Assembly (NCBI GenBank): GCA_026396615.1
Contig: JAPLWK010000008.1
Span: forward strand, 140,883 to 183,058
DNA from: a candidate division WWE3 bacterium
Lineage (GTDB): Bacteria > Patescibacteriota > WWE3 > JAPLWK01
Length of the DNA stretch: 42,176 nt
Direction of reading: 5' to 3'
Made by a program: the position numbers and the translations under genes. How positions within the stretch are numbered: position 1 is the stretch's first letter; each line of letters opens with the position of its first letter. The notes under the pieces were generated by a model that saw only the letters and a program-made list of their open reading frames with translations, did not search any database and was not told the DNA's origin. Shown here piece after piece: positions 2 to 13,982 of the stretch.

Positions 2-895
2 AAGATGGGCACACCGGCCGTGAAGGCGGGCAATATTTGGTTTACTTACCACCGACTGCCTGGGCCGATCAACAAATTGCCGATAATGGTTGGCTATTGT
101 CCTAAAGTTTCTGAAATGTCCTCCGCAGATTGGAAAGAGCTGGCGACGGTGGGACGAGCTAAGAAATGTGCTTTTATTAAAATCGAAAGCAACGTGGTCA
201 TGTCAGATTCAACAGATAGGACTAACCCGAAAGTTTCGGGCTTAGAAATTAGAAATTCTTCCAGGGTCTTTGCCTCTCACACCTACCTCTTAGACTTGGC
301 TCAAACCGAAGAGCAACTCTTATCAAATCTTCATCAAAAGACCCGCTACAACATCGGTCTCGCGGCTCGTAAGGGTGTGGTCATCGAAGAACGCAATGAT
401 GACGAGGCTCTAAAGATATTTTTAAAACTCCAGAAAGAAACTACGGATAGGCAACATTTTTTCGTACATCCGAATAAATACTACGAAACTTTGTGGAATA
501 TTTTGGCCCCTAAAAAGATGGCTTACTTACTGCTAGCTAAGTTTAATGATGAATATTTGGGAGCCTTAATGCTTTTTAAATACGGCGATACTTTTTATTA
601 CCCCTATGGCGGGACTTCGGAGCATCATAAAGAATTAATGGCGCCGTCACTGCTGATGTGGGAAGCGGTTCGGCTCGGTCAAAAACTTGGTTGTAGCACT
701 TTTGATATGTGGGGAGCCGCCGGGTCACTTGATCCCAAAGATCCGTGGTCGGGCTTTACTAGATTCAAGCAAGGTTTTGGTGGTCAGCTGGTCGAGTTCA
801 AACCCACTTATGATCTCGTCCTCAACAAGCCTTTATATCACCTCTTAACTTTGGGAAATAAATTACGGTGGTTCTTTTTAAGAATTAGCCGCTAG
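2..895 (+). CDS. FemAB-like peptidoglycan bridge aminoacyltransferase, 5' end missing
   Basis: The reading frame is open to the window edge, so the first ATG (position 5) is probably internal. Visible sequence resembles the FemA/FemX family, which adds amino acids from aminoacyl-tRNA to the peptidoglycan stem peptide: a segment with TRYNIGLAARKGV, then a second GNAT-like fold with LGALMLFKYGDTFYYPYGGT, then FDMWGAAGSLDPKDPWSGFTRFKQGFGG, the typical family ending. Members normally begin with a region containing a W..F motif, and about 40-50 residues of that are absent here. The 3' end overlaps the convergent lepA gene by 18 nt. A second family member lies at 34417-35259. Exact substrate cannot be told from sequence. 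Confidence 0.85.
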   Translation, partial: KMGTPAVKAGNIWFTYHRLPGPINKLPIMVGYCPKVSEMSSADWKELATVGRAKKCAFIKIESNVVMSDSTDRTNPKVSGLEIRNSSRVFASHTYLLDLAQTEEQLLSNLHQKTRYNIGLAARKGVVIEERNDDEALKIFLKLQKETTDRQHFFVHPNKYYETLWNILAPKKMAYLLLAKFNDEYLGALMLFKYGDTFYYPYGGTSEHHKELMAPSLLMWEAVRLGQKLGCSTFDMWGAAGSLDPKDPWSGFTRFKQGFGGQLVEFKPTYDLVLNKPLYHLLTLGNKLRWFFLRISR

Positions 896-2659
896 GATTT
901 TGCGATAAGCGTCGGCCGGAATCGAGATTTTTCCAATTAACCTCATTTTCTTTTTACCCCTCTTTTGAAGATCCGTGAGTTTATCTTTGCGGCGCTGGTC
1001 GCCACCACTCATTTTAGCGAGGACGTCTTTACGGTAAGTTTGCAAATCTTCACGAGCAATAATATGGCCGCCAATGGCCGCTTGTAAAGACACCGCAAAT
1101 TGCTGCCGCGGTAAATTTTCTTTAAGTCTGCCTAGAATTTTGCGGCCTTCGGCTTCAGCCTGGTCTCGAATTATCAACTCGGAAAGTGCAGGAACGACTT
1201 CGTTATGAACTAAAATATTTAATTTGACGACGTCGGCCGCTCTATAGTCTCCCAGTTCGTAATCCAGACTGGCGAAGCCGGAAGAGACTGATTTAAGTTC
1301 ATCGAAAAAACCAATTATTAATTCTTTAAGCGGCATTTCGGCGGCGACTAGTACTTTAGAAGCCGAAAAATATTTTATCTCACCAATGATGCCGCGATGC
1401 TCTTTAACGAGGTCTAATGACGGTCCCAAGTATTGATTAGGGACAATGATCGAAAGCATGGTCCACGGTTCTCGCACTTCCGTTAGAATCGAGGGATCTG
1501 GAAAGTCGATTGGAGAATTAATAACTTCAGTTTCGCCATTAGTTTTCGTTACCTCGTAGGCAACCGACGGCAGCGAATAAATTAAGGCAATTCCAAAGTC
1601 CCGTTCTAATCTTTCGCCAATAATTTCCGAGTGTAGCAGTCCTAGGAAGCCAACGCGGTAACCAAAGCCTAAGGCGGATGATGATTCTGGGGTAAAAGAC
1701 AAGGCGGCATCGGTCAACCGTAACTTCTCTAAAGCCTTTTTAAGATTTAAGAAATCATCACCAGAATTAGGATAGACGCTCATAAAAACCACCGGTTTGG
1801 CTTCTTTGTAGCCGGGAAGAGCCTGGGTTGCCGGATTATCTCTCGTCGTCAACGTTTCGCCGGCCCGAACGGCCGAGAGATCCTTAAGGCCGGTCGCCAC
1901 AAAACCAACTTCACCAGTCGAAAGGTTTTCAACGGTCGTCGGCTTGGGAGAATTAACGCCGATTTGGATCGGGTCAAACGCTTCACCAGAATGTTTGGCT
2001 AGCATTTTAGTTTGACTAAGTTGCCCTGCAGTCACTTTAATGGCGGCAATGACGCCCTGGTGCTCATCATAATAAGAATCAAAGACCAAAGCTTGCAATG
2101 GTTCGTTGGCTAGACCCGTCGGGGCTGGAATTTTCTTAATTATCTCGGTCAGAAGTTCTTGCACTCCGGCGCCGGTCTTGGCGGAAATCGCCAGAATGTC
2201 GCTGTCCAAGAATCCAAAAGTACTAACTAGGTCGGCCTTGGTTTCTTCCGCGTAAGCCGTTGGCAAATCGATTTTATTAAGGACCGGAATAATGGTTAGA
2301 CCTAATTCTTGCGCTTTTTGAACGTGGGCTAAAGTTTGGGCTTGAATTCCCTGAGTCGCATCCACAACTAATATTGCCCCTTCGCAAGCCGCTAAACTCC
2401 GAGAGACTTCATAGGAAAAATCGACGTGGCCTGGGGTGTCGATCAGATTTAAAGTGTAACCTTGGTACGTCATTCTTACCGACTTAAGCTTTATAGTAAT
2501 GCCTCGTTCGCGCTCTAAGTCTAAACTATCCAAGAATTGCTCACGCATATCTCTGGAACTCACGGTTCCGGTCAAATTAAGTAAGCGGTCGGCGAGAGTC
2601 GATTTACCGTGATCAACATGGGCAATGATTGCGAAGTTACGGATTTGTTGTTGTTTCAT
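878..2659 (-). CDS. lepA: Elongation factor 4 (LepA), ribosome-associated GTPase
   Basis: 593 aa, close to the usual 600. The G domain shows AHVDHGKSTLADRLL (P loop), RERGITIK (switch I), DTPGHVDFSYEVSRSL (switch II), NKIDLP and SAKTG. The LepA-specific C-terminal domain is present, with the end GGDQRRKDKLTDLQKRGKKKMR. LepA acts on the ribosome in the cytoplasm (back-translocation or initiation quality control). Its start ATG lies inside the 3' end of murJ (23 nt overlap), so it is translated from the murJ message. It shares its last 18 nt with the convergent FemAB-like gene. Confidence 0.97.
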   Translation of the reverse strand: MKQQQIRNFAIIAHVDHGKSTLADRLLNLTGTVSSRDMREQFLDSLDLERERGITIKLKSVRMTYQGYTLNLIDTPGHVDFSYEVSRSLAACEGAILVVDATQGIQAQTLAHVQKAQELGLTIIPVLNKIDLPTAYAEETKADLVSTFGFLDSDILAISAKTGAGVQELLTEIIKKIPAPTGLANEPLQALVFDSYYDEHQGVIAAIKVTAGQLSQTKMLAKHSGEAFDPIQIGVNSPKPTTVENLSTGEVGFVATGLKDLSAVRAGETLTTRDNPATQALPGYKEAKPVVFMSVYPNSGDDFLNLKKALEKLRLTDAALSFTPESSSALGFGYRVGFLGLLHSEIIGERLERDFGIALIYSLPSVAYEVTKTNGETEVINSPIDFPDPSILTEVREPWTMLSIIVPNQYLGPSLDLVKEHRGIIGEIKYFSASKVLVAAEMPLKELIIGFFDELKSVSSGFASLDYELGDYRAADVVKLNILVHNEVVPALSELIIRDQAEAEGRKILGRLKENLPRQQFAVSLQAAIGGHIIAREDLQTYRKDVLAKMSGGDQRRKDKLTDLQKRGKKKMRLIGKISIPADAYRKILAANS

Positions 2660-4268
2660 AATTTGGGATTTCGGGGGCAGTCGCAGGCTTCTTAATAATT
2701 TTATTAACGAGACTGTACAGTAACCGAATTTCTTGAACTTTAAAGAGCCAGGTTAGAATTAAGTAAGATATAACGCCAGCAAGTCCTGCAATGGCGGTTA
2801 GAATTACTAAATTAATAGTTCGACTAGTGTCGAGGGCGTAGAGGTCGAGTTGCTTCAGAGGTAAGTAGAGGCAACCGGCCATAATAAAAGTGGCGGCGCA
2901 AATTTTAATGAACGGTTTGCCGAAATCAACTATCGAAAAACCGTTTAAGGTCTTGGCTAAATAAGTAAAAAGTAAAATGCACTCAATTGAGCTCGATATA
3001 AAGTAAGCTAGGGACAGTCCCCAAACTCCAAGATGAAAGACTCTTATAAACAAGATTGCCACTATAATATTTATTATCGTTCCGGCGCAGTTAATAATAA
3101 ACGGCGTCTTGGAATCTTTAAGGGCGTAAAAAGCTTTAGTAATGCTAAGAGCAGCAGCCTGCGGAAAAAGAGCCAGCGCTAAAAAGGCTAAAGTGTAAGC
3201 GGCGGTAAGGGTGGCTTCCCAGGAAAAACGACTGGCGCCAAAGACTAAACGAATCGCCGGGACCCTAAGAACCAGCAGGACGGCGGCAGCCGGTAAAATT
3301 AAAAACGATAATTGCAAAAAAGAAGTTAAAAAAGTTTTCTTAAACTCCGTTTTATCTTCTATAAGCGCTTTTTGAGATAAAGTTGGAAAAAGGGCGGCGC
3401 TAATTGAAACCCCAAAAATTCCCAAAGGGACGTTTTGCAAGTGGAGCGCAAAAGTATAAGGGACGATCGCGGCCACCGACACCCAAGCGGCCAGCCAGGA
3501 ATCAATCAAGATTGATAGTTGACTCACTATAATCGTTAAAGTTCTTGGTCCCAGTAAATGCATGGTTTCCAAAAATGCCGGTGCCCTTAAATTTATTTGT
3601 GGTTTAAATTTAAAATCAATTTGTTTTAGAGCCGGAATCTGGATAGCCAGGTGCATACAAGCCCCTAAAACCGCCCCCCAGGCGGCAGCGATAATCCCAA
3701 AACGAGAGGCGGCTACAATTCCCACAATTAAGCCAAGATTGTAAAAAATTGGAGAAAGGGCGGGAATTAAAAAGTGTTTATGAGACTGCAGTAAACAGGT
3801 CAAGAAATTACTGACAATTAGCAGCAGCTGCCCCAGTAGCAGTATCCGTAGTAAGGTGACGAGAGTTGCAAAATCGGAAGGCGACAGTTTACTGCTTGTT
3901 AAAAGGCTGGCAATTGGGGTCGCGAAAATAAACAGAATTACTCCAAGTCCCGCAAACCCGACAAGGACGACTGATAAAATTTGGGAAGACAGCTCCCAAG
4001 CGGTAGCCACGTCATTTTTTAAATATTTTGTGAATACCGGGATTACGGCGGTGGAAAAACCGCCAATGACTAAAACACTAAAAATAAAATTTGGCAGTTT
4101 GTCGGCTAAATAAAACAAACCAAGTGGCGTGCTATCACCGAAAAAGTTGGCTGCCAAGCGATCCCGAATAAAGCCCAGTAGACCGCTACCAAGTAACGTC
4201 AGGCCAATTAGGGCCGCGGCCGTTATAATAGACTCCTGGCGCTTGAGAAAGAGATTCTTAAAAGTCAT
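2637..4268 (-). CDS. murJ: Lipid II flippase MurJ (MviN family)
   Basis: About 543 aa, almost entirely hydrophobic with about 14 membrane segments. N-terminal landmarks are GSGLLGFIRDRLAANFFG and DKLPNFIFSVLVIGGFSTAVIPVF, characteristic of MviN/MurJ. It moves lipid II across the inner membrane for peptidoglycan synthesis. The frame can start at TTG 4271 or ATG 4268; ATG is preferred. A possible -10 (TATGGT on the minus strand, 4286-4281) lies 12 nt upstream, divergent from the rpsT promoter. It is followed directly by lepA with a 23-nt overlap. Confidence 0.95.
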   Translation of the reverse strand: MTFKNLFLKRQESIITAAALIGLTLLGSGLLGFIRDRLAANFFGDSTPLGLFYLADKLPNFIFSVLVIGGFSTAVIPVFTKYLKNDVATAWELSSQILSVVLVGFAGLGVILFIFATPIASLLTSSKLSPSDFATLVTLLRILLLGQLLLIVSNFLTCLLQSHKHFLIPALSPIFYNLGLIVGIVAASRFGIIAAAWGAVLGACMHLAIQIPALKQIDFKFKPQINLRAPAFLETMHLLGPRTLTIIVSQLSILIDSWLAAWVSVAAIVPYTFALHLQNVPLGIFGVSISAALFPTLSQKALIEDKTEFKKTFLTSFLQLSFLILPAAAVLLVLRVPAIRLVFGASRFSWEATLTAAYTLAFLALALFPQAAALSITKAFYALKDSKTPFIINCAGTIINIIVAILFIRVFHLGVWGLSLAYFISSSIECILLFTYLAKTLNGFSIVDFGKPFIKICAATFIMAGCLYLPLKQLDLYALDTSRTINLVILTAIAGLAGVISYLILTWLFKVQEIRLLYSLVNKIIKKPATAPEIPNYETTTNP

Positions 4269-4290
4269 CAAATGCAGGTTACCATAGCCC

Positions 4291-4319
4291 TTGATTTGGC
4301 GCCAGGGCTCTGGTATATT
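4291..4319 (+). promoter_or_regulatory. rpsT operon promoter
   Basis: TTGATT (4291-4296), 17-nt spacer, TATATT (4314-4319) with an extended -10 TGG just before it. Predicted start of transcription is near 4326, leaving a leader of only about 10 nt and no Shine-Dalgarno sequence before the rpsT ATG. This supports the start at 4336 over an upstream in-frame TTG. Confidence 0.75.
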
Positions 4320-4335
4320 GGTCTCCTGTAGTTTT

Positions 4336-4563
4336 ATGGCTAATTTAAAATCCGCTCAAAAGAAAACCCGAGTCGATATTAGGCGTACCAAATACGCTGT
4401 CTCTTGGAAAACCAAGCTACGGAAAGCGGTTAAATTAGGGGTTGTTTCCGATATCTACAAAGTGGCCGATAAGATGGCAAAAAACCATATTATTCACCCC
4501 AATAAAGCTGCTAGAATAAAGGGGCATGCCGCCTCTAAACAACTTAAGTCTAAATCTAATTAA
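4336..4563 (+). CDS. rpsT: 30S ribosomal protein S20
   Basis: 75 aa, starting MANLKSAQKKTRVDIRRTKY, the S20 signature (typical: MANIKSAKKR). It ends HPNKAARIKGHAASKQLK, also typical. S20 is an early-binding 16S rRNA protein of the 30S subunit. It is slightly shorter than the E. coli protein (87 aa). The start is fixed by similarity and by the promoter, since an upstream TTG would lie within the -35 element. It is first in an operon whose next gene overlaps it by 38 nt. Confidence 0.96.
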   Translation: MANLKSAQKKTRVDIRRTKYAVSWKTKLRKAVKLGVVSDIYKVADKMAKNHIIHPNKAARIKGHAASKQLKSKSN

Positions 4564-5068
4564 ACCCGTCTCTTTCGAGGAATCCGGAATCGGAAGTAAA
4601 ATCCTCTACTTCTTCCGTGTTCAAGGGCGGCTACTCATAATAATTTTTCAGTTTTTAGTGGTCCTTTCTTTCGTGGCTCGCTATCTTTTAGATCAGCAAT
4701 TGTTACCCGTTAATACTCGTTTAAGCAGTCAAATGCTTACTTTAGATAAGCTTAAAGTGGTTGAGGATCAATTAAATGTGAATAACCAGCGGTTACTGCA
4801 ACTTCGTAGTATTCAAGCTAAATCAAGTGATCTTCCCGGAATTTTAGTAGCGGTTCGTGGCTGCTTACCGGAAGGTTTAACTCTGTCTCAATTAAATATT
4901 ACTTCTAAATCAATAACCATAAACGGATCAACCATTGATGCGATTAATTTTGGGAAGTTATTGGTGGCTTTAAAACAAGTGGCCGCTTTTAAGCAAATCG
5001 CCCTAAACTCCGCCACTTATGATAAAACCCACAATAGTTTCTTGTTTAATTTAGAAGTAGCTTTATGA
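4526..5068 (+). CDS. PilN-like type IV pilus inner-membrane assembly protein
   Basis: 180 aa. A short cytoplasmic N-terminus with LSLNLIKP resembles the PilN motif (INLLP) that contacts PilM. One membrane segment follows (about residues 33-58), then a coiled stretch and a C-terminal region with LPEGLTLSQLNITSKSITINGST, typical of the PilN periplasmic fold. In type IV pili PilN pairs with PilO to align the motor with the pilus. It overlaps rpsT by 38 nt in another frame and the next gene by 4 nt (ATGA). Assignment rests on topology, motif and the PilO-like neighbour; sequence identity to characterised PilN is low. Confidence 0.75.
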   Translation: MPPLNNLSLNLIKPVSFEESGIGSKILYFFRVQGRLLIIIFQFLVVLSFVARYLLDQQLLPVNTRLSSQMLTLDKLKVVEDQLNVNNQRLLQLRSIQAKSSDLPGILVAVRGCLPEGLTLSQLNITSKSITINGSTIDAINFGKLLVALKQVAAFKQIALNSATYDKTHNSFLFNLEVAL

Positions 5069-5637
5069 CTTTAGGGATCCCTAAATATTTAAATAGAAAC
5101 CTTCGGGCCTATATTTCAGAAACCCCCCAGAAAGCCTACACTTTGCTAGGATTAAGTCTAATAACCATTATAATTTTTGGCACTTTTGGAATTTATCCGG
5201 CTATCGCTTCCGTATTCAAAATTAAGGCCAATATTGAGCAGGGCAAAAAATATGAAACGACCTTCGATCAGAAAATCACGGCCCTAAAAGCAGCGTCAGT
5301 AAGACTCCGTAACGAGGCGGCCGCGGTTACCAAGATCTCAGAGCTACTGCCAATTAGTGCGGATAACGGCCAATTTATTCAGGATTTATCGCTTCTGGCC
5401 AGTAATTCTTTAGTAAAATTAGATTTTATTCAAAAAGTATCGATAACCGAAGCGGCTAGCTCCGGAGAAAATAAATATTGGATCGGTTTAAGTGGCAGTT
5501 ACGGCAACATTGAGAAATTTTTAAAAGATCTAGGCAGTTTTAAACGTTTAGTTTCCATAGCTTCAATTGGCTTAAGTTCTTTAAACAGCCAGGCGCGAGC
5601 GACGGTATACTTAAGTACGTTTAATTATGTTAGGTAA
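5065..5637 (+). CDS. PilO-like type IV pilus inner-membrane assembly protein
   Basis: 190 aa with one membrane segment (about residues 28-50), a charged coiled region, then NGQFIQDLSLLASNSLVKLDFIQ and a C-terminal ferredoxin-like segment with GSYGNIEKFLKDLGSFKRLVSI. The GSY.N...FL..L....RLV pattern is the hallmark of PilO. It should pair with the PilN-like protein encoded just upstream (ATGA overlap). No PilM, PilB, PilC or pilin gene is in the window. Confidence 0.78.
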   Translation: MTLGIPKYLNRNLRAYISETPQKAYTLLGLSLITIIIFGTFGIYPAIASVFKIKANIEQGKKYETTFDQKITALKAASVRLRNEAAAVTKISELLPISADNGQFIQDLSLLASNSLVKLDFIQKVSITEAASSGENKYWIGLSGSYGNIEKFLKDLGSFKRLVSIASIGLSSLNSQARATVYLSTFNYVR

Positions 5638-5645
5638 GTTAATTT

Positions 5646-5828
5646 ATGTCTAAGGATTTAATTATAGCTTTAATTGCTGTTTTAATTGGTCTTACGGTCT
5701 GGGGCCTTTTTGGAGTTATTCACAGCCGGCAGACTGATAGTCTGCCTTTCGGTGTTGCTGATTATTTAAAACCATTACCACCAACATTAAACCTTGACCT
5801 ATCCGCTCAAAGCGCTAAAGTTAAGTAA
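5646..5828 (+). CDS. Small single-pass membrane protein in pilus operon
   Basis: 60 aa. One N-terminal membrane segment (about residues 4-26) followed by a short polar tail containing PLPPTLNLDL. No family recognised. Its position after PilN/PilO-like genes, 8 nt downstream and joined to the next gene by a TAATG overlap, suggests a small accessory part of the same envelope assembly. It could occupy the place of PilP, but no PilP motif is visible. Confidence 0.6.
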   Translation: MSKDLIIALIAVLIGLTVWGLFGVIHSRQTDSLPFGVADYLKPLPPTLNLDLSAQSAKVK

Positions 5829-6421
5829 TGGTTATTTTAAATAAAGAAATTAACCGGGTGTTTGTGCTACCGGTCGTTGGGGTAATATTAGTTATAATAC
5901 TGGCGGTTTCCGGTTGGTTTATTAGCAGGCGTCTCACGTCATCGAATCTTTCGGCGGTGACCACGCATGCTACTGAAAGTACCGATGCCGCTTCTCAAAG
6001 CGGCTCTCATAATGTTTGTGAGAATAATGCCTGCGTGGCCAAGCCTGGGATTGGGCCTTCCGACTGCACTTTAAATATCGATTGCGCGCCGGCCGAATGC
6101 GCTACTGTCGTTGCCAGTCCCGAAAAGCCGGCGATTGGCGATAGCAATGTTAAATTTATTTGTGCCGGTAGTGTGCCAAGTAGTTCCAATACGGTAGCCA
6201 CGGTCGACTTTTCGTTGACAGTACCGAGCACCGCCAACGCTGACGAATTTAGTTGTCCTTCCGATAATTGTACATTTACATCAACCGGAAGTAACTTTAC
6301 AGCCACTCTTACTTACCCCAAGGCGCTCGTCAAGGGCTCTTATTCTATTATGACCAGGGCTTGCTTTAAACTGGCTTCGGGAGCCGATATTTGTGGAAAA
6401 TACTTGCCACCAACGCCTTAA
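5828..6421 (+). CDS. Membrane-anchored exported protein with one four-cysteine repeat
   Basis: 197 aa. One N-terminal membrane segment (about residues 12-34) then an extracytoplasmic region. Residues about 59-86 hold one copy of the H..C....C......G...C.....C repeat (HNVCENNACVAKPG...) that recurs five times in the next protein. The rest (about 90-197) is Ser/Thr-rich with paired cysteines and looks like a beta-sandwich domain. No enzyme motif. Likely a surface component made with the PilN/PilO-like proteins; function unknown. Confidence 0.65.
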   Translation: MVILNKEINRVFVLPVVGVILVIILAVSGWFISRRLTSSNLSAVTTHATESTDAASQSGSHNVCENNACVAKPGIGPSDCTLNIDCAPAECATVVASPEKPAIGDSNVKFICAGSVPSSSNTVATVDFSLTVPSTANADEFSCPSDNCTFTSTGSNFTATLTYPKALVKGSYSIMTRACFKLASGADICGKYLPPTP

Positions 6422-6427
6422 AGCCCC

Positions 6428-8239
6428 ATGAAGAATAATTTGCTACGGCTTCTCATCATCGCTCCGTTCCTGGTTATTGGATTTTTAGTAGTTCAAGGAT
6501 CGCCGTCTTCTTCTGTGTCTCGCGAGCCCTCGGTTCTGGGGAGTTCTATAATTATTACCGTTGGAGACTCAGGAATTACCTGTACTTCCAAAGCCCAATT
6601 GACTTTACCAAAGAATTTTCCGCCGCTTAATTCCGATCTTAATAATTCCAAAACGGTCGATATCGACGGCGTTGCGGTCAAAGGGGCGCCCTTAGGCCTT
6701 GATGTCACCTATCAAATTGATTGCACCAATACCGGCATTACTCCGCTAACCGGTCTGGTTCTAACCAATCCGCTCACAGGAGCTAATCAGAATTACTTAA
6801 CTTATAAATCAACGAATAACTCCGATTGTAGTTTTAATAACCCTGATTTTATTTGTAACCCCGGAAACCTTGCGGTCGGGGCCAAACTCAGCCGCAGTTT
6901 TATAGTCACTGTGGCTTCAGATATCCTTGAAAACTCAGTTGCGGTAACAAACGTAGCGACGATTACCGCGGACGGCGGGATTGCCGCACCGGCGTCAACT
7001 TCTTTCTCAATTTATAAACGGCCGGCTTGCGGCAGCTTAACCCATTCTCCCAGTCCTGTGGTTGCCAGTTCTCCCGCTACTTTTACCGGGATCGGGACCA
7101 CTTATGATAATGCGCAAACTACCTATATCTTTTCAGTTGGCGCAGTAGCGGTCTCTGTCCAAAGCGGTACTACTTACAGCCAGTCATTTGTAAATCAAGC
7201 CGAGCCATATTACACCACTTTGGCGATTCGTGATTCTTTGGGTAATGCTTCCGGAGACCCCAGTAATTGCAGTGCGGCTTGCGCCAATACTTTTGAAGTG
7301 GCGGCCGCTCCCTCTCAATGTGTTTCCGGTCTCACTTTGACTCCCAGCTCTGGCCCCTCACCTCTTAGTGTCACCGCGATGGCTTCACTGACCGGAACTT
7401 TCACAATGCCGTTGACTTCGAAGGTTTACGACAGTTCAACTCTGATTAAACAAGTCTCCGGAAATAGTAACAATATCTCGGTGCTCTTAAGTTTTACAAA
7501 TGATACCCAAAGTCCAGTGCCACATTTACTAAGTCTGCTGGTTTACGACAGCGCCGGAAAGTTGGTATCAAATCTCTGCGAGGCCGCGATTTTAGTCCAG
7601 CCAGCCGTTGCCCCGCCCCCGCCACCAACACTTAATCAACATTACGCCTGTGTTAGTGCAACCTGCACTTTACTTAATTCGCCAGGAATAAATTCCTGCA
7701 CAGTTGGTGGCACTGAGTGCGTGGTAGCAACGCATTATGCTTGTGTTAATAATGCTTGTACTTTGGTCAATTCCGCGGGAGCGAACACTTGTATCGTTGG
7801 TGGTTCGGAATGCGCCGCGGTATCACCTCCGGTCGTTTCGCATTATGCTTGCGTGAATAGTGCCTGTACGCGGGTCAATTCCGCGGGCGTGAGTACTTGC
7901 ACTTTAGGAGGAACGGAGTGCGCCCCCTTGGTCACGCACTTAGAATGTAATGCTACAAGCTTAGTCTGCGAGGCGGTGGTGGGGGCTGGTGTGGATAGCT
8001 GCAGTACTAACGCCCAGTGTGCGGTCATATCTCCCAGCGGACCGCATCATTTTGTGTGTAATCAAGTGCGAAAGTCTTGTGACAGTTATTACGGAAACGG
8101 CGTGAATACCTGCAAAATTAGTAGTGACTGCACCCAGTTTAACGGCGGTACCCCTAGTTTGACAGGAGCGTTGCTCGTAATTGGTGGCTCTTTACTTCTC
8201 GGTGGTTTTGTTACCATAATGAAGTTGCTAAAAAAATGA
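6428..8239 (+). CDS. Large surface protein: Ig-like domains plus five four-cysteine repeats and C-terminal membrane anchor
   Basis: 603 aa. Signal segment at residues about 5-25; a DUF11-like beta-sandwich with VTYQIDCTNTGITPLTGLVLT (about 80-190); two further PKD/Ig-like regions (about 200-395); a proline linker APPPPP; five four-cysteine repeats (405-568); and a C-terminal hydrophobic helix ending MKLLKK. TPSLTG just before the helix resembles a degenerate sorting signal, and a sortase gene lies about 0.7 kb downstream on the other strand. Start ATG is 6 nt after the previous stop and the end overlaps the next gene by 4 nt (ATGA). Probably an adhesin or surface fibre; that is inference. Confidence 0.75.
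   Translation: MKNNLLRLLIIAPFLVIGFLVVQGSPSSSVSREPSVLGSSIIITVGDSGITCTSKAQLTLPKNFPPLNSDLNNSKTVDIDGVAVKGAPLGLDVTYQIDCTNTGITPLTGLVLTNPLTGANQNYLTYKSTNNSDCSFNNPDFICNPGNLAVGAKLSRSFIVTVASDILENSVAVTNVATITADGGIAAPASTSFSIYKRPACGSLTHSPSPVVASSPATFTGIGTTYDNAQTTYIFSVGAVAVSVQSGTTYSQSFVNQAEPYYTTLAIRDSLGNASGDPSNCSAACANTFEVAAAPSQCVSGLTLTPSSGPSPLSVTAMASLTGTFTMPLTSKVYDSSTLIKQVSGNSNNISVLLSFTNDTQSPVPHLLSLLVYDSAGKLVSNLCEAAILVQPAVAPPPPPTLNQHYACVSATCTLLNSPGINSCTVGGTECVVATHYACVNNACTLVNSAGANTCIVGGSECAAVSPPVVSHYACVNSACTRVNSAGVSTCTLGGTECAPLVTHLECNATSLVCEAVVGAGVDSCSTNAQCAVISPSGPHHFVCNQVRKSCDSYYGNGVNTCKISSDCTQFNGGTPSLTGALLVIGGSLLLGGFVTIMKLLKK
7640..8131 (+). repeat. Five-copy coding repeat with four cysteines per unit
   Basis: Encodes residues 405-568 of the large surface protein. 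Units begin HYAC (three), HLEC (one) and HHFVC (one) and follow H..C....C..V...G...C.....C, about 27-33 residues each. The first three are the most alike in DNA, pointing to recent duplication; the last two are diverged. A sixth copy is in the neighbouring 197-aa protein. Regular cysteine pairs suggest disulfide-linked modules outside the cell. Confidence 0.85.
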
Positions 8240-8919
8240 AAAAATCTGCCAGCCAAACAATTATAACCGTCGTAGTTTTATCTGTAGTTCTAATTTCCGG
8301 GGTATTTTTCCTCAAGGGTGGCTTCGGTCTTTTTAATGGCTCTACTGTGTCTGACGTTCCTCAAAACGTCTCCATTAGTGAAGTTCGCAGTACTCAAAGT
8401 TCTGTTTCTTGGATTACCGCTGACCGCACTCCCAGCACTGTTTACTACGGCACTACGTTGTCCTTGGGAGACGAGAAGACAATACCCGGTTTAACTACGG
8501 CTCACTTAGTGACTTTAGAAAATTTAAATCCCGATACCACTTACTATTTAATGATTGGCGGCAGTAGCCAAAAATATGCCTCCGATGGTCCCAGTGGCGC
8601 TATTCCTTACACGTTGCGCACTTTAGCCGCTCTTCCTGCTACTAATAATTCCGCGGTTAATCCGAATCCAATTCCGGTCAAACAACTCGCTTTAGCCCAA
8701 ACTCCGTCTCCGTTTGGAGAAGTACTAAAAAATGGTGGTAGTAATCGTCCGCAAGTTCTAGCGGAAGCCACTACCAGTGGCGGCACGTCTGGAGGGACGT
8801 CCGGCGGCACAAGCGGTGGAAATGGCACGCCGCAAACGGCTAGTCCTTTATATACCTTGTTAGTCGCGGTCGTTTCTTTATCACTCTTAGGGTTTGGGTA
8901 TAGGCTTCTGAGGCGTTAA
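8236..8919 (+). CDS. Surface protein with fibronectin-III-like domain, Gly/Ser/Thr stalk and C-terminal anchor
   Basis: 227 aa. N-terminal membrane/signal segment (about 8-28). Then a fibronectin type III or purple-acid-phosphatase-N-like domain (about 40-130: VSISEVRSTQSSVSWITADR, NPDTTYYLMIGGSS). A linker carries four tandem Gly-rich units (TSGG, TSGG, TSGG, TSGG). The C-terminus is NGTPQTASP, a hydrophobic helix and YRLLRR: the layout of a sortase substrate (motif, helix, basic tail), with TPQTA instead of LPxTG. ATGA overlap with the previous gene. The next gene, a sortase, is convergent and overlaps by 4 nt. Confidence 0.72.
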   Translation: MKKSASQTIITVVVLSVVLISGVFFLKGGFGLFNGSTVSDVPQNVSISEVRSTQSSVSWITADRTPSTVYYGTTLSLGDEKTIPGLTTAHLVTLENLNPDTTYYLMIGGSSQKYASDGPSGAIPYTLRTLAALPATNNSAVNPNPIPVKQLALAQTPSPFGEVLKNGGSNRPQVLAEATTSGGTSGGTSGGTSGGNGTPQTASPLYTLLVAVVSLSLLGFGYRLLRR

Positions 8920-9641
8920 TACACTAATTTCCCAATCACCAACAGCCGACTAGTCGTTAACCCCGGTGGATAACAGGTCATCAAAACCACGGATGATGAG
9001 CTGCCGGTTTCCAGGCCGTAATCTTTTAGTGGTGCCACTTCCGCGGGGTTTAAAATCTTGGTTTCCGTTACTTCGTAGCGGTAAGTCACGGCGTTGATGC
9101 CAATGCTAAACTCGTCGCCAACAGTTAGATTTGGTAAAGTCGAAAAGATAGTTTTGTAATTATTAGGGCTAAAAAACAAAGGAGCGGCCGAATGTCCGTA
9201 AATAAAAGTCGTGCCAATGTCGCCCGGAATCGCACTGCCTCGAAAATGCCCCAAACGCTCGTCAGGGCTTAAATTTACGGAGTTAGTTTCCACACTGGCT
9301 TCTTTAATATTTAGTTTGGGAATTGTTAACAAAAAAGTATCTGGCACTTCCTCATTTACCCCGGAAGTAATTGTTAAAGATTCGCTGCTACTTAGCTTGG
9401 CACTTTTTGGTAACGGTACTCCAACCATGGGGGAAGGGGTATCAACATTAAAAGCTCCTAAAACACTGTTTTGGGGGGATTCTAATTTACTATCCTGACC
9501 TGTAAATTGAGGTAAGATTACTTGGGAAAGTAGCAATATAAATCCGCCTAAAATAAAGCAAAAAGCGGTTCCAAATTTTAAAAACGGCTTAAAAATGAAG
9601 ACCCACCAGGCTTTAGCCGGCAATTTTGAGAGGTTTTTCAT
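8916..9641 (-). CDS. Sortase (cysteine transpeptidase)
   Basis: 241 aa. Membrane anchor at about residues 20-46, a spacer, then the sortase beta-barrel from about 100. Catalytic residues can be assigned: His150 in IYGHSA, Cys223 in VVLMTC (the TLxTC motif) and Arg232 in TTSRLLVIG. Sortases cut a C-terminal sorting signal on exported proteins and join them to the envelope or to pilins. The sequence resembles class D/E sortases more than SrtA; class is uncertain. The two proteins encoded just beyond, at 6428 and 8236, have possible sorting signals. Its start lies within the 3' end of holA (29 nt overlap). Confidence 0.92.
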   Translation of the reverse strand: MKNLSKLPAKAWWVFIFKPFLKFGTAFCFILGGFILLLSQVILPQFTGQDSKLESPQNSVLGAFNVDTPSPMVGVPLPKSAKLSSSESLTITSGVNEEVPDTFLLTIPKLNIKEASVETNSVNLSPDERLGHFRGSAIPGDIGTTFIYGHSAAPLFFSPNNYKTIFSTLPNLTVGDEFSIGINAVTYRYEVTETKILNPAEVAPLKDYGLETGSSSSVVLMTCYPPGLTTSRLLVIGKLVY

Positions 9642-10347
9642 TGGTGTAGGTAGTGTAGTGAATGATTAAATTGGTCAGTAGCAGATCATCAGAAAGAGAG
9701 CTGCCTTTAAGGGCCATATCAACCGTTAACAGTTGACTATAGATTTCCAACAATTCCATTTCCGTAAAATTCTTTGCTGCCGTCGTCAACTTTCTTTTTT
9801 GAAAAGGCGACAAGCTTTCGGCCAGTTTATTTTTATACTTGACGGAAAGTAAGTTTCTCGTTAAGTACGTTATCATTACTAAAATTCCAATCGCCGATTC
9901 GCCTTGAGCCAAGAGTGTTTGTAATTCCTCAAAAGCCCGGGGGCGGTTTTTGGCGCCCAAGGCATCCAGTAATCCCCAGATTTGAGCCGTCACTTCGTCG
10001 TCGAAAAACGTCACTTGGCCACCAAGGTCGGCGACAGATTTTAAAAGTTTGGAGTTCTTAGGGAGCGAGCCGTCGATCCAAAGGACTGCGTCTACGCCGT
10101 CGACGCCGGTCTTATTTAAAGTCTTAAGCAGCTCCTCCTCGTATTTTTTCCACTCTGTAGCCATCTCGGCAACGATCAAAGTCTTCTCGGAAAGTAAGGA
10201 CTGACTGTTAAAGAGGCTGGAAATCGGTCCCGCGAAGTTCTTGTCAATGACGATTGTTTGCACCGCCTCCGGTGGGAAGTTCTTTTTGACTTCAAGTAGG
10301 GCTTTTCGAGACGAAGTTTTATTTTTACCGCCAATTAAATAAATCAC
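9613..10347 (-). CDS. holA: DNA polymerase III delta subunit
   Basis: About 244 aa, short against 330-340 in E. coli. N-terminal IYLIGGKNKTSSRKALLEV resembles the HolA start (IYLLYGEE...). The core has FDDEVTAQIWGLLDALGAKNRPRAFEELQTLL and a C-terminal VDMALKGSS. Delta opens the sliding clamp within the clamp-loader complex. An ATG at 10350 is possible, but GTG 10347 is preferred because it places the start 6 nt after the -10 box, as in other transcription units of this window, and gives the usual MIYL start. It is co-transcribed with the sortase. Confidence 0.88.
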   Translation of the reverse strand: MIYLIGGKNKTSSRKALLEVKKNFPPEAVQTIVIDKNFAGPISSLFNSQSLLSEKTLIVAEMATEWKKYEEELLKTLNKTGVDGVDAVLWIDGSLPKNSKLLKSVADLGGQVTFFDDEVTAQIWGLLDALGAKNRPRAFEELQTLLAQGESAIGILVMITYLTRNLLSVKYKNKLAESLSPFQKRKLTTAAKNFTEMELLEIYSQLLTVDMALKGSSLSDDLLLTNLIIHYTTYTNEKPLKIAG

Positions 10348-10353
10348 CATTTC

Positions 10354-11474: not shown

Positions 11475-12029
11475 ATGATTTCCAAAGAAAAAGAGTTAAA
11501 AAAGATAGCGGTTAACATCGCTTCCTGCCGTCTTTGTCAGCAAGGCATGTCGGGTCTGCCAGTTCCCGGTGAGGGCGCGGTCAACGCAAAACTAATGTTT
11601 ATTGGTGAAGCGCCTGGGGTTGAGGAATCTAAGACCGGAAGACCTTTCATCGGTCGCTCTGGAAAATTGTTGACCCAGATTCTGGCTGAAATCGGTCTAA
11701 AACGCGAAGAGGTTTTTATCACTTCTCCGGTCAAATACTTTCCCGGCCGCCGCGCTCCCACTTCTCAAGAAATCGATCACGGCAGAACGCACTTACTAGC
11801 ACAAATAAAAGTTATTCAGCCAAAATTTATAGTTCTAATGGGAACCACGGCCGTTAAGGCTTTATTACCAGACGAAACTTTTCATGCGGTTAAAGATCAT
11901 GGTCGCGTCGTCACTCAGTCCGGTCAAACGTACTTTCTCACCTTCCACCCCGCCGCCGCCCTGCGCTCCCCTAAAATTTGGGGTGGGTTAATGCGGGCTG
12001 ATTTTAAGAAGCTATTAAAATTACTCTAG
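11475..12029 (+). CDS. Uracil-DNA glycosylase, family 4-like, with two iron-sulfur ligands missing
   Basis: 184 aa. Motif 1 is GEAPGVEE (44-51), followed by TGRPFIGRSGKLL, and the His158 motif TFHPAAALR: all typical of family 4 UDG. These enzymes remove uracil from DNA. Family members bind a 4Fe-4S cluster with four cysteines. Here C18 and C21 are present, but aligning VKYFPGRRAPTSQEI with the usual VKCRPP.NR.PTPEE puts Tyr88 and Gly103 where the other two cysteines belong. The residue after the usual ITN also differs (ITSPVK). So the fold is secure but the cluster is doubtful. Operon with recA; the 3' end overlaps the convergent ABC-F gene by 9 nt. Confidence 0.88.
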   Translation: MISKEKELKKIAVNIASCRLCQQGMSGLPVPGEGAVNAKLMFIGEAPGVEESKTGRPFIGRSGKLLTQILAEIGLKREEVFITSPVKYFPGRRAPTSQEIDHGRTHLLAQIKVIQPKFIVLMGTTAVKALLPDETFHAVKDHGRVVTQSGQTYFLTFHPAAALRSPKIWGGLMRADFKKLLKLL

Positions 12030-12734
12030 CGATTCATTTTCGAAATAAGATAACGCCCCTGCTTTAAGGTTAAGTACTTTATTAACCCCCACACTTTCCA
12101 CGAAATAACGATCGTGCGAAACGAGTAGCAACGTTCCTTGGTATTTTCGTAAACTATCTTCTATAACTTCCTTGGTTTCAATATCTAAGTGGTTATCCGG
12201 TTCATCTAGTATTAGCAAATCGTAATCTTTATGGGCAAAAATGGCGAAGGCAAAACGAGCTCGCTCCCCGGGGCTTAATTGCCAAATTCTTTTAGCAATA
12301 TCGTCTTTATTAAATAAAAATTTGCTTAAATACCCTTTAGCATCATAAAAAAAGCAATTAGTACTAGCCGTAAAAATCTCTTGTAAATTTCGATTATCTG
12401 TTCCTTCTTTATCCATATGTTGCACTTGAGCAAAGTAACCTAGTTTCACGTTGTCGCCAATCTTTACCTCTCCAGAACTTGTTAGCTCCTCGCCCATAAT
12501 CATTTTCACCAAAGTAGATTTACCAGCGCCGTTGGGGCCAAAGAGCCACAGTTTTTCCTGACCGCGGAGTTCAAAATCTAAATTAGTAAACACCCGATTT
12601 TTTCCGTAAGCCTTAGCCACGTTACTGCAACGGACCATAAGCTTCCCCGGCCGAATGTCGGTCGCGAAATTTAAGCCCTTTATCTTTTTAGAAACGTATT
12701 CTTCTTTCGGCTGGCTAGTTACTTCTCGCTCCAT
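12021..12734 (-). CDS. ABC-F ATPase, C-terminal half (second nucleotide-binding domain)
   Basis: 237 aa with Walker A GPNGAGKST (67-75), signature LSPGERARFAFA, Walker B LLILDEPDNHLD (usual EPTNHLD, here D for T) and switch LLLVSHDRYF. It begins MEREVTSQPKEEYVSKKIKG, which reads as the linker of an ABC-F protein and not a natural N-terminus. The ATG lies 20 nt inside the preceding half-gene in another frame. Removing one A from GAAAAGAATGG at the junction would fuse the halves as ...QEKMEREV.... ABC-F proteins bind the ribosome E site (translation or antibiotic protection). It may still be made by translational coupling. Confidence 0.85.
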   Translation of the reverse strand: MEREVTSQPKEEYVSKKIKGLNFATDIRPGKLMVRCSNVAKAYGKNRVFTNLDFELRGQEKLWLFGPNGAGKSTLVKMIMGEELTSSGEVKIGDNVKLGYFAQVQHMDKEGTDNRNLQEIFTASTNCFFYDAKGYLSKFLFNKDDIAKRIWQLSPGERARFAFAIFAHKDYDLLILDEPDNHLDIETKEVIEDSLRKYQGTLLLVSHDRYFVESVGVNKVLNLKAGALSYFENESLE

Positions 12735-13401
12735 TCTTTTCTTGGCAGAGCACGTATTCTTCGTTCCACTTGTCGATCAGCTTTAACTTTTGGGTACGAT
12801 AATTATCATAATCACCTACAAATTGGTACAGCTTTCCTGCTTCGATTTCCCAAATTTCATCTACTGTGTGATTTAGAAACGAGCGGTCGTGGGAAATCAT
12901 AATCACTGTGGCCGGCAGAGTTTTAACGTAATTCTCAAACCACATAATACCTTCGATATCTAAGTGATTGGTAGGCTCGTCTATAAATAATGTCGTTGGG
13001 TTCTTTAGTAAGACTTCAATTAACTTCACTCTCATCTTCTGCCCCTCGCTCATGGTTTTAACATTTTGCTGGGGATCATAATTAGTAAATTCCAGTTGCG
13101 TTACCAATTTATCAATCAGATAATATTCCCAAGAGCCATCAAGACTTGATTCTAAATACTCGGCCACCGTTATATTGGGGAAATCAAATTCTTGAGGAAT
13201 GTAGCCAATCACCTCGTTTTGAATATCGAGGCCTCCGGCGGTTGGCTCTTCAATGCGGTTAACGATTCTAAATAACGTTGACTTGCCACAGCCGTTGCGT
13301 CCTACCAGACCAATTTTCTTGCCGTTACCGAGTTTAAAATCCACTCCGTTTAAGACAAAAACATCGCCATATTTTTTAGTGAGATTTTTAGCCGTAATCA
13401 C
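12715..13401 (-). CDS. ABC-F ATPase, N-terminal half (first nucleotide-binding domain)
   Basis: 228 aa from a GTG start. Walker A is GRNGCGKST (34-42), followed by signature MSEGQKMRVKL, Walker B TTLFIDEPTNHLD and switch VIMISHDRSFL. The C-terminus YRTQKLKLIDKWNEEYVLCQEK matches the start of the ABC-F inter-domain linker, then runs into six residues (NGARSN) and a stop. With the second half it would form one ABC-F protein of about 460 aa with a short linker. GTG is preferred because a -10 box ends 6 nt upstream. Confidence 0.85.
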   Translation of the reverse strand: MITAKNLTKKYGDVFVLNGVDFKLGNGKKIGLVGRNGCGKSTLFRIVNRIEEPTAGGLDIQNEVIGYIPQEFDFPNITVAEYLESSLDGSWEYYLIDKLVTQLEFTNYDPQQNVKTMSEGQKMRVKLIEVLLKNPTTLFIDEPTNHLDIEGIMWFENYVKTLPATVIMISHDRSFLNHTVDEIWEIEAGKLYQFVGDYDNYRTQKLKLIDKWNEEYVLCQEKNGARSN

Positions 13402-13454: not shown

Positions 13455-13982
13455 TCAATCGTTGGGGTTTTGTTCAATGTAATATTGAAGAATCGCTAGT
13501 TCTTTTTCGTTGCGAATAATTCTTTCGAAGTAACTCCTTTGCCACAGATCAATCGATTTATCTTTTAAAAGTAGACGAACTTGTTTTGTCATCTCAGACT
13601 TGAAAGACCCAACAATGCTTCCAAGCGTAGGGGCGTGGCATGCCGCGCCCGCAATCTCGATTATAAAATGAAGGTGACTAGGCATAATCTGAAAGGTGTT
13701 TAATGAAACGGGATAATGATCTGGTATATTTTTCCAAACATTCTCAACGATTTTACCGAGGCGACTTGGGAGAAATATCTTTTCGGTTGCGGGCTGGGCA
13801 TGCCCAGCCCCTACGATCGATTTTTGTGGTCTCAAGTTGCCGTCAACTATATTTCCAAGAATACACCTTCTATTTTCCACGCAAATCGTCACGAAATAAT
13901 ACCACTCTGTTGAATAATCAACTCCAGGTAATCTTAAAAGCTTTCGCTTAGGTCGAATCACTCGATCATATTTATCCAGCAC
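13455..13982 (-). CDS. REP-associated tyrosine transposase (RAYT, IS200-like Y1 family)
   Basis: 175 aa. Recognisable landmarks: PGVDYSTEWYYFVTICVENRRCILG, MPSHLHFIIEI (HxH metal-binding pair), IVGSFKSEMTK, LWQRSYFERIIRNEKEL and ILQYYIEQNP, which carries the probable catalytic tyrosine. RAYTs are single-copy relatives of IS200/IS605 TnpA that process REP palindromes. It lacks the usual W after the final NP, so may be a few residues short. Two REP-like palindromes lie inside the coding sequence in opposite orientation and are translated in frame (IVGAGHAQPA and GAACHAPTLG). Confidence 0.9.
   Translation of the reverse strand: MLDKYDRVIRPKRKLLRLPGVDYSTEWYYFVTICVENRRCILGNIVDGNLRPQKSIVGAGHAQPATEKIFLPSRLGKIVENVWKNIPDHYPVSLNTFQIMPSHLHFIIEIAGAACHAPTLGSIVGSFKSEMTKQVRLLLKDKSIDLWQRSYFERIIRNEKELAILQYYIEQNPND
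13627..13650 (+). repeat. REP-like palindrome inside the RAYT gene (copy 1)
   Basis: GTAGGGG head (13627-13633) followed by the inverted repeat GGGCGTGGCA / TGCCGCGCCC (13631-13650), one mismatch. On the coding strand it encodes GAACHAPT. Same head as the repeats near 31314, 31991 and 13814. Confidence 0.75.
13791..13814 (-). repeat. REP-like palindrome inside the RAYT gene (copy 2)
   Basis: Perfect 20-bp palindrome GGGCTGGGCA / TGCCCAGCCC (13791-13810) followed by CCTAC, that is a GTAGGGG head on the minus strand. It is in the opposite orientation to copy 1 about 165 bp away, so the two form a REPIN-like inverted pair. It encodes VGAGHAQPA. Confidence 0.8.

Follow-up and report, generated by a model that had tools for sequence, protein, structure and literature searches.

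How does a second copy of the pilus alignment proteins PilN and PilO come to lie between a ribosomal protein gene and a set of sortase-associated surface proteins, and what might it do there? The question is raised by a stretch of 42,176 nucleotides (hereafter the window) from a candidate division WWE3 bacterium (assembly GCA_026396615.1, contig JAPLWK010000008.1, positions 140,883 to 183,058 of the forward strand). In the window, rpsT is followed on the same strand by genes for a PilN, a PilO, a 60-residue membrane protein (m60) and three exported proteins, and a sortase gene faces this run. The PilN–PilO pair (PilNO2) differs from the pair (PilNO1) of a separate type IV pilus in the same genome. 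Its association with rpsT or murJ, with m60, with an anchored membrane protein and with a sortase is strongly kept in the class WWE3 and partly beyond it. An initial annotation of the window had proposed that PilNO-type proteins here accompany surface proteins instead of a normal pilus system and serve sortase-anchored fibres. An open reading frame (ORF) check bears out its seven genes and convergent sortase, together with their coordinates, overlaps and gaps. The features are as follows.

878..2659, minus strand: lepA (PF06421, 1.3e-34), a kept boundary of the cluster
2637..4271, minus strand: murJ, lipid II flippase (TIGR01695, 8.5e-81), a kept boundary of the cluster
4291..4319, plus strand: candidate sigma-70-like operon promoter, TTGATT and TATATT 17 nt apart, with TG before the −10 box; the ATG of rpsT lies 16 nt further on
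4336..4563, plus strand: rpsT, ribosomal protein S20, 75 residues (PF01649, 8e-8; TIGR00029, 2.1e-9)
4526..5068, plus strand: pilN2, second PilN paralogue (PF05137, 4.9e-5, over the cut-off)
5065..5637, plus strand: pilO2, second PilO paralogue (PF04350, 1.8e-8, over the cut-off)
5646..5828, plus strand: m60, 60-residue membrane protein (family alignment of 32)
5828..6421, plus strand: 197-residue exported membrane protein (ORF, no Pfam match)
6428..8239, plus strand: 603-residue exported surface protein (DUF11, 6.6e-7)
8236..8919, plus strand: 227-residue Fn3 membrane protein (fn3, 5.2e-7)
8916..9641, minus strand: sortase with an N-terminal membrane anchor (PF04203, 9.7e-18; TIGR01076 over the cut-off)
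9613..10350, minus strand: holA (TIGR01128, 1.8e-22), a kept boundary of the cluster
5..895, plus strand: FemAB-family protein (PF02388, 7.8e-32)

Within the run, rpsT and pilN2 overlap by 38 nt, pilN2 and pilO2 by 4 nt, m60 and the 197-residue gene by 1 nt, and the 603- and 227-residue genes by 4 nt; the remaining gaps are 8 nt (pilO2 to m60) and 6 nt (197- to 603-residue gene). The stop of the sortase gene overlaps that of the 227-residue gene.

On profile comparison, the window's PilN and PilO are true members of their families. A profile of PilO relatives matches the solved PilO structures in the PDB, namely those of the Myxococcus pilus machine (3jc8, 2.8e-14) and of Pseudomonas (2rjz, 2.7e-9), and a profile of PilN relatives matches the PilN chain of 3jc8 (1.5e-4). 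PF05137 is matched by 11 of 36 PilN2 relatives at E ≤ 0.01, and PF04350 by 24 of 35 PilO2 relatives. PilN2 consists of a short cytoplasmic tail (containing LNLIKP), one membrane helix, a coiled coil and a small C-terminal domain. The PilNO2 operon of the window contains no pilM, pilP, pilQ, pilB, pilC or pilin gene, and no pilM was seen beside PilNO2 in relatives.

A pilus system is encoded elsewhere in the same genome (826 kb in 12 contigs, 97% complete). A separate PilM–PilN–PilO row lies at G000:C3:21169-23281 (PilM at C3:21169-22173), and contig C2 carries PilB, PilT, PilC, a pilin and PilD, the last recognized by eye; the genome has nine N_methyl pilin matches. The separate type IV pilus is thus apparently complete in its genes. 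The initial annotation had named a complete pilNO set elsewhere as refuting its proposal, and such a set was found; the idea that the window pair replaces a missing pilus system is ruled out by these canonical genes. Since PilB, PilC and a clear PilM occur once and PilN and PilO each twice, the pair in the window counts as a second set.

Gene order was compared in neighbourhoods collected around PilO matches and, irrespective of PilO, around MurJ matches in the class, some of these loci being cut by contig ends. PilN2 and PilO2 adjoin murJ or rpsT in 39 of the 40 class genomes with a readable locus (weakly in G037); G043 is the only readable locus without them. The usual order is lepA(−), murJ(−), rpsT(+), pilN2(+), pilO2(+), m60(+), a gene for a "GFTF" protein(+), sortase(−) and holA(−). 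In families f2, f4 and f5, pilN2–pilO2–m60 lies between lepA and murJ, as it does, reversed, in f11. This order cannot be attributed to chance, because it recurs in about 40 genomes whose PilN and PilO are only about 11–27% identical to those of the window. Outside the class, loci around rpsT were sampled from 60 genomes of about 60 other families of the phylum; four of these carry the module (G071, G089, G103 and G140), and it was also found in G048. An Fn3 membrane protein follows m60 in four of these five carriers (L067, L122, L163 and L179), and no sortase was seen near PilNO2 in the stretches read from the five genomes. Separately from these results, second MurJ copies occur in G004 (C39), G010 (C2) and G001 (C6), and G003 is rated 100% complete, yet its murJ, rpsT and PilO are unmatched, which may mean that the assembly lacks the whole segment.

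In a tree of joined PilN and PilO sequences, all 24 PilNO1 pairs fall on one side and all 38 PilNO2 pairs on the other (support 0.996). Deeper branching is not to be trusted, since the alignments are weak (about 20% identity). On this split, PilNO2 is an ancient paralogue forming a clade apart from PilNO1.

The most constant companion of the pair is m60, whose gene directly follows pilO2 in almost all PilNO2 loci. Its family comprises proteins of about 55–130 residues with one N-terminal helix and a tail of the form P[IL]xxxIDxExLxxL; the window member has a single membrane helix at its N-terminus, and its exoplasmic tail reads KPLPPTLNLDL. The family profile also matches outside the class (L067, L122, L153, L163 and L179), misses a likely copy in each of G007 and G037, and no m60 was seen in G002. 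Against Pfam and the PDB m60 gave no match, including none to PilP; its assignment to the Pfam PilP family was accordingly rejected, and the likeness to PilP lies in layout and in a gene fusion. In G042 (L108) and G031 (L106) there is no separate m60, and the m60 tail, without its membrane helix, is fused to the C-terminus of PilO2. A profile of the tail ranks G042 first (6e-5), above all other PilO sequences and 1,240 shuffled tails; G031 ranks second and is not significant alone (0.28). The fusion was probably a single event, because the two genomes are close in the tree. It argues that the m60 tail may work beside the outer domain of PilO2.

The N-terminal tail of PilN2 suggests a link to the canonical pilus. 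PilM binds PilN at a conserved N-terminal motif (PMC5805733), and the PilN of T. thermophilus begins VIRLNLLPKN, as read from a primer (PMC6325625). PilN1 tails of the class carry INLLP or INLIP, non-class PilN2 tails INLLPK or INLVPK, and class PilN2 tails INLLP, INLVP, INLAP and similar forms in many families. The core motif is present in 34 of 38 PilN2 N-termini, against 16 expected from shuffled sequences, and 12 have the full 5-mer, against 1.6 expected. Nearly all class genomes have one clear PilM match, away from PilNO2. With PilM encoded elsewhere and its motif kept in the PilN2 of many families, sharing of one PilM by the two PilNO sets is likely. In f4, where a search at E ≤ 1e-15 had suggested PilNO2 without PilM, that idea was dropped when a diverged, longer PilM (about 380–394 residues) was found in G003, G009, G016 and G018. 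Three of these genomes (G003, G009 and G018; L085-L092) have two PilB/PilC motors alongside the diverged PilM.

The proteins encoded after m60 are more variable. Most commonly, the next gene encodes a short protein that begins in the cytoplasm with the conserved AKxGFxTF and has the conserved end PRKxALxxFE; two helices lie between these, the first separated from the second by a variable stretch and then a VPxTG-type motif. An N-terminal helix combined with a VPxTG-type signal before a C-terminal helix is found in at least 19 of 29 partner proteins, and in most relatives the sortase gene is adjacent to the partner gene. In the window, the positional counterpart of the GFTF protein is the 227-residue protein, which has an N-terminal helix, Fn3, a linker, TPQTA, a C-terminal helix and RLLRR. 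Its Fn3 domain, of purple-acid-phosphatase-N type, is kept in the window's family, in f2, f4, f7 and f11 and in non-class lineages. The other two exported proteins are lineage-specific: the 197-residue protein combines a helix at its N-terminus with a single Cys repeat unit (found by regular expression) and a Cys-bearing beta-type domain, and the 603-residue protein has a signal, DUF11, five Cys repeats, PSLTG, a C-terminal helix and a KLLKK tail. The window sortase has the His, Cys and Arg of its family (H150, C223 and R232) and scores 48.5 against the class C model, below its cut-off of 160. With no class C call over the cut-off, no shaft-type subunits seen and a short conserved partner, a sortase-assembled pilus was rejected. 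The conserved partner looks like a protein spanning membrane and wall and not like a polymer subunit. The other outcome that the initial annotation had named as refuting, a lack of linkage in relatives, did not occur: the linkage is kept in the class and partly beyond, and the PilNO2–sortase module therefore stands as a conserved genomic association; the fibres of the initial annotation do not, as there are no pilins here and the exported proteins are either lineage-specific or short.

Two proteins take the partner's place in f2, f4 and f11: one is cohesin-like and bears VPxTG, and the other has Fn3 and closes with a dockerin-like DxNxDG loop. Each of the two assignments comes from one weak match below the cut-off, and in the PDB a cohesin scaffoldin was matched only at E 0.17; such a pair would form a possible membrane–wall bridge. 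Cohesin-like VPxTG-type proteins occur at L047, L052, L054, L064, L069 and L051, several of them adjoining Fn3 proteins with dockerin-like ends. In one f10 genome, a gene of the LytR-CpsA-Psr family (wall polymer ligase type) lies beside holA, beyond the sortase (L105 2690-3838), and ORFs of its size occupy the same position in other genomes.

The head of the run is rpsT, as initially annotated, with a different start. The TTG at 4291 assigned earlier falls inside the −35-like box TTGATT (4291–4296), 17 nt ahead of the extended −10 box TATATT (4314–4319); the start is the ATG at 4336, which leaves a very short leader. The boxes were found by a consensus scan in which the number of matches in the region is near chance and the position is distinctive, and in relatives comparable boxes ahead of rpsT score a little higher than shuffled sequence. 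A functional promoter may lie ahead of rpsT. Among the other genes of the window, the FemAB-family protein, near murJ and the sortase cluster, is likely to act in peptidoglycan cross-bridge formation or a related aminoacyl transfer. Two ABC ATPase ORFs with a 20 nt overlap (12021-13401, minus strand) together resemble one split ABC-F protein, reflecting a frameshift or a real split. An IS200-like (Y1_Tnp) transposase lies at 13455-13982 (minus strand), with a similar-looking ORF on C2 (L062 1440-2165, plus strand).

We favour, at somewhat less than an even chance, a role for PilNO2 as a second alignment module that is linked to PilM, is coupled to wall-anchored proteins and anchors or aligns the pilus machine in the monoderm wall. 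PilN2, PilO2 and m60, the last as a PilP-like linker, would assemble in the cytoplasmic membrane as a second alignment subcomplex, and the PilN2 motif would dock on the same PilM as the canonical type IV pilus. Outside, the membrane-anchored Fn3 or GFTF protein, joined to the wall by the neighbouring sortase, would tie the subcomplex to peptidoglycan and surface proteins, so that the pilus machine, or else a scaffold based on PilM, would be held in a wall that has neither outer membrane nor secretin. With this reading we infer complex formation, PilM sharing, cleavage by the window's sortase, wall anchoring and any role in piliation. It draws on the PilN/PilO homology and the split from PilNO1, the deep linkage with a conserved m60, the fusion of the m60 tail to PilO2, the INLLP-type motif of the family, and the adjacent sortase with sorting-type signals in partners; FemAB and murJ within the window also count for it. 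If the first helix stays uncleaved, the sortase product would be fixed in both membrane and wall. The bolder version, in which a sortase-coupled PilM–N2–O2–m60 is a type IV pilus wall anchor, VPxTG cleavage of a membrane-held protein makes a covalent membrane–wall staple, and the cohesin-like and dockerin-like proteins provide a non-covalent form elsewhere, is speculative and rather unlikely.

Several observations weigh against the favoured role. The window motif LNLIKP is degenerate, and in f10, the largest family, the tail is longer and often retains NLL alone. The window sorting signals TPQTA and PSLTG are atypical, and single-sequence models of PilN2 and PilO2 are of low confidence (pLDDT 47 and 55). 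In f2, f4, f5, f6 and f9, pilNO2–m60 is parted from the surface genes by murJ–rpsT or has no sortase nearby. G043 (L114) has lost pilN2–pilO2–m60 and keeps rpsT, the GFTF protein, the sortase, holA, PilM and T2SSE ATPases, so the parts are separable; G007 is the reverse, having PilNO2 with neither sortase nor GFTF protein beside it. Such cases, and the lineage-specific 197- and 603-residue proteins, would fit neighbours by history, PilNO2–m60 and the sortase and surface genes having been inserted in the same rpsT–holA gap and sharing a message or region without joint work. We consider this improbable, as the pilN2–pilO2–m60–Fn3 order also occurs outside the class and neighbouring genes of the module overlap by 4–14 nt in many relatives.

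The nearest rival to wall anchoring is that PilNO2 serves as an alternative assembly platform, swapping with PilNO1 on shared PilM, PilC and PilB for a second kind of pilus, with the sortase genes as surface-display partners only. TM7x, a member of the Saccharibacteria, carries two complete PilMNO sets and two pili that differ in their jobs (PMC12206443), PilMNO of monoderms is needed for assembly itself (PMC6916266), and both the single PilB, PilC and clear PilM beside two PilNO sets and the PilM motif kept in PilN2 are consistent with such swapping. Yet the class loci read show no pilin, PilB or PilC close to PilNO2, the conserved companions are m60 and the anchored membrane protein and not pilins, and in f4 genomes with two PilB the second motor is not beside PilNO2; this platform is possible but unlikely. 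Less likely still, and about as improbable as neighbours by history, PilMNO2 may have been recruited into a structure other than a pilus, a membrane cage or a scaffold for envelope proteins. In Campylobacter flagella FcpMNO is a second PilMNO set with the housekeeping gene miaB kept upstream, and its partner PflD, a membrane helix with a PilP-like loop, resembles m60 in layout (PMC11870540); Chloroflexota PilNO lie beside archaellum genes without PilM (PMC13319060). At the present locus there are no flagellum or other machine genes, and the class genomes that gave usable data have pilus genes alongside PilNO2.

How type IV pilus machines of monoderms are fixed to the cell wall and pass through it is a listed open question (PMC6916266), and pili are thought central to the hold of small cells on their hosts (PMC6744442, PMC12206443). 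The conserved PilNO2, its tiny PilP-loop-like partner, the wall-anchored proteins and the sortase offer named genes for this question; a staple, if real, would adjoin the base of the pilus in one branch of the ultra-small monoderms. The open-access literature searched contained no report of a PilNO set beside rpsT and a sortase, which is likely one further case of PilNO reuse outside a pilus operon.

Among known systems, the type IVa PilMNOP subcomplex shares with PilNO2 the homology and order of PilN and PilO, overlapping genes, membrane topology and, in many families though in degenerate form in the window, a PilM-binding-type PilN motif. The PilNO2 operon differs in having no pilM, other pilus genes or pilin, in the helix-plus-tail protein after PilO, and in the adjoining wall-anchored proteins and sortase. 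FcpMNO/PflD of the Campylobacterota flagellar cage (PMC11870540) is likewise a second PilNO set outside a pilus operon, with a housekeeping gene upstream and a helix-plus-PilP-like-loop partner, whereas PilNO2 has no dedicated PilM or flagellum, a partner without the PilQ-N1 domain, and a sortase link. T4P-2 of TM7x (pilM2N2O2, PMC12206443) also provides a small genome of episymbiont type with a second PilNO set, and recA lies nearby in both; it comes with PilM2 and a complete second motor, and here PilNO2 stands by itself in a surface-protein operon. In Chloroflexota, PilN and PilO beside archaella are proposed to anchor to peptidoglycan without PilP or PilQ (PMC13319060); there PilO carries LysM, whereas here a separate sortase-linked protein might bind the wall.

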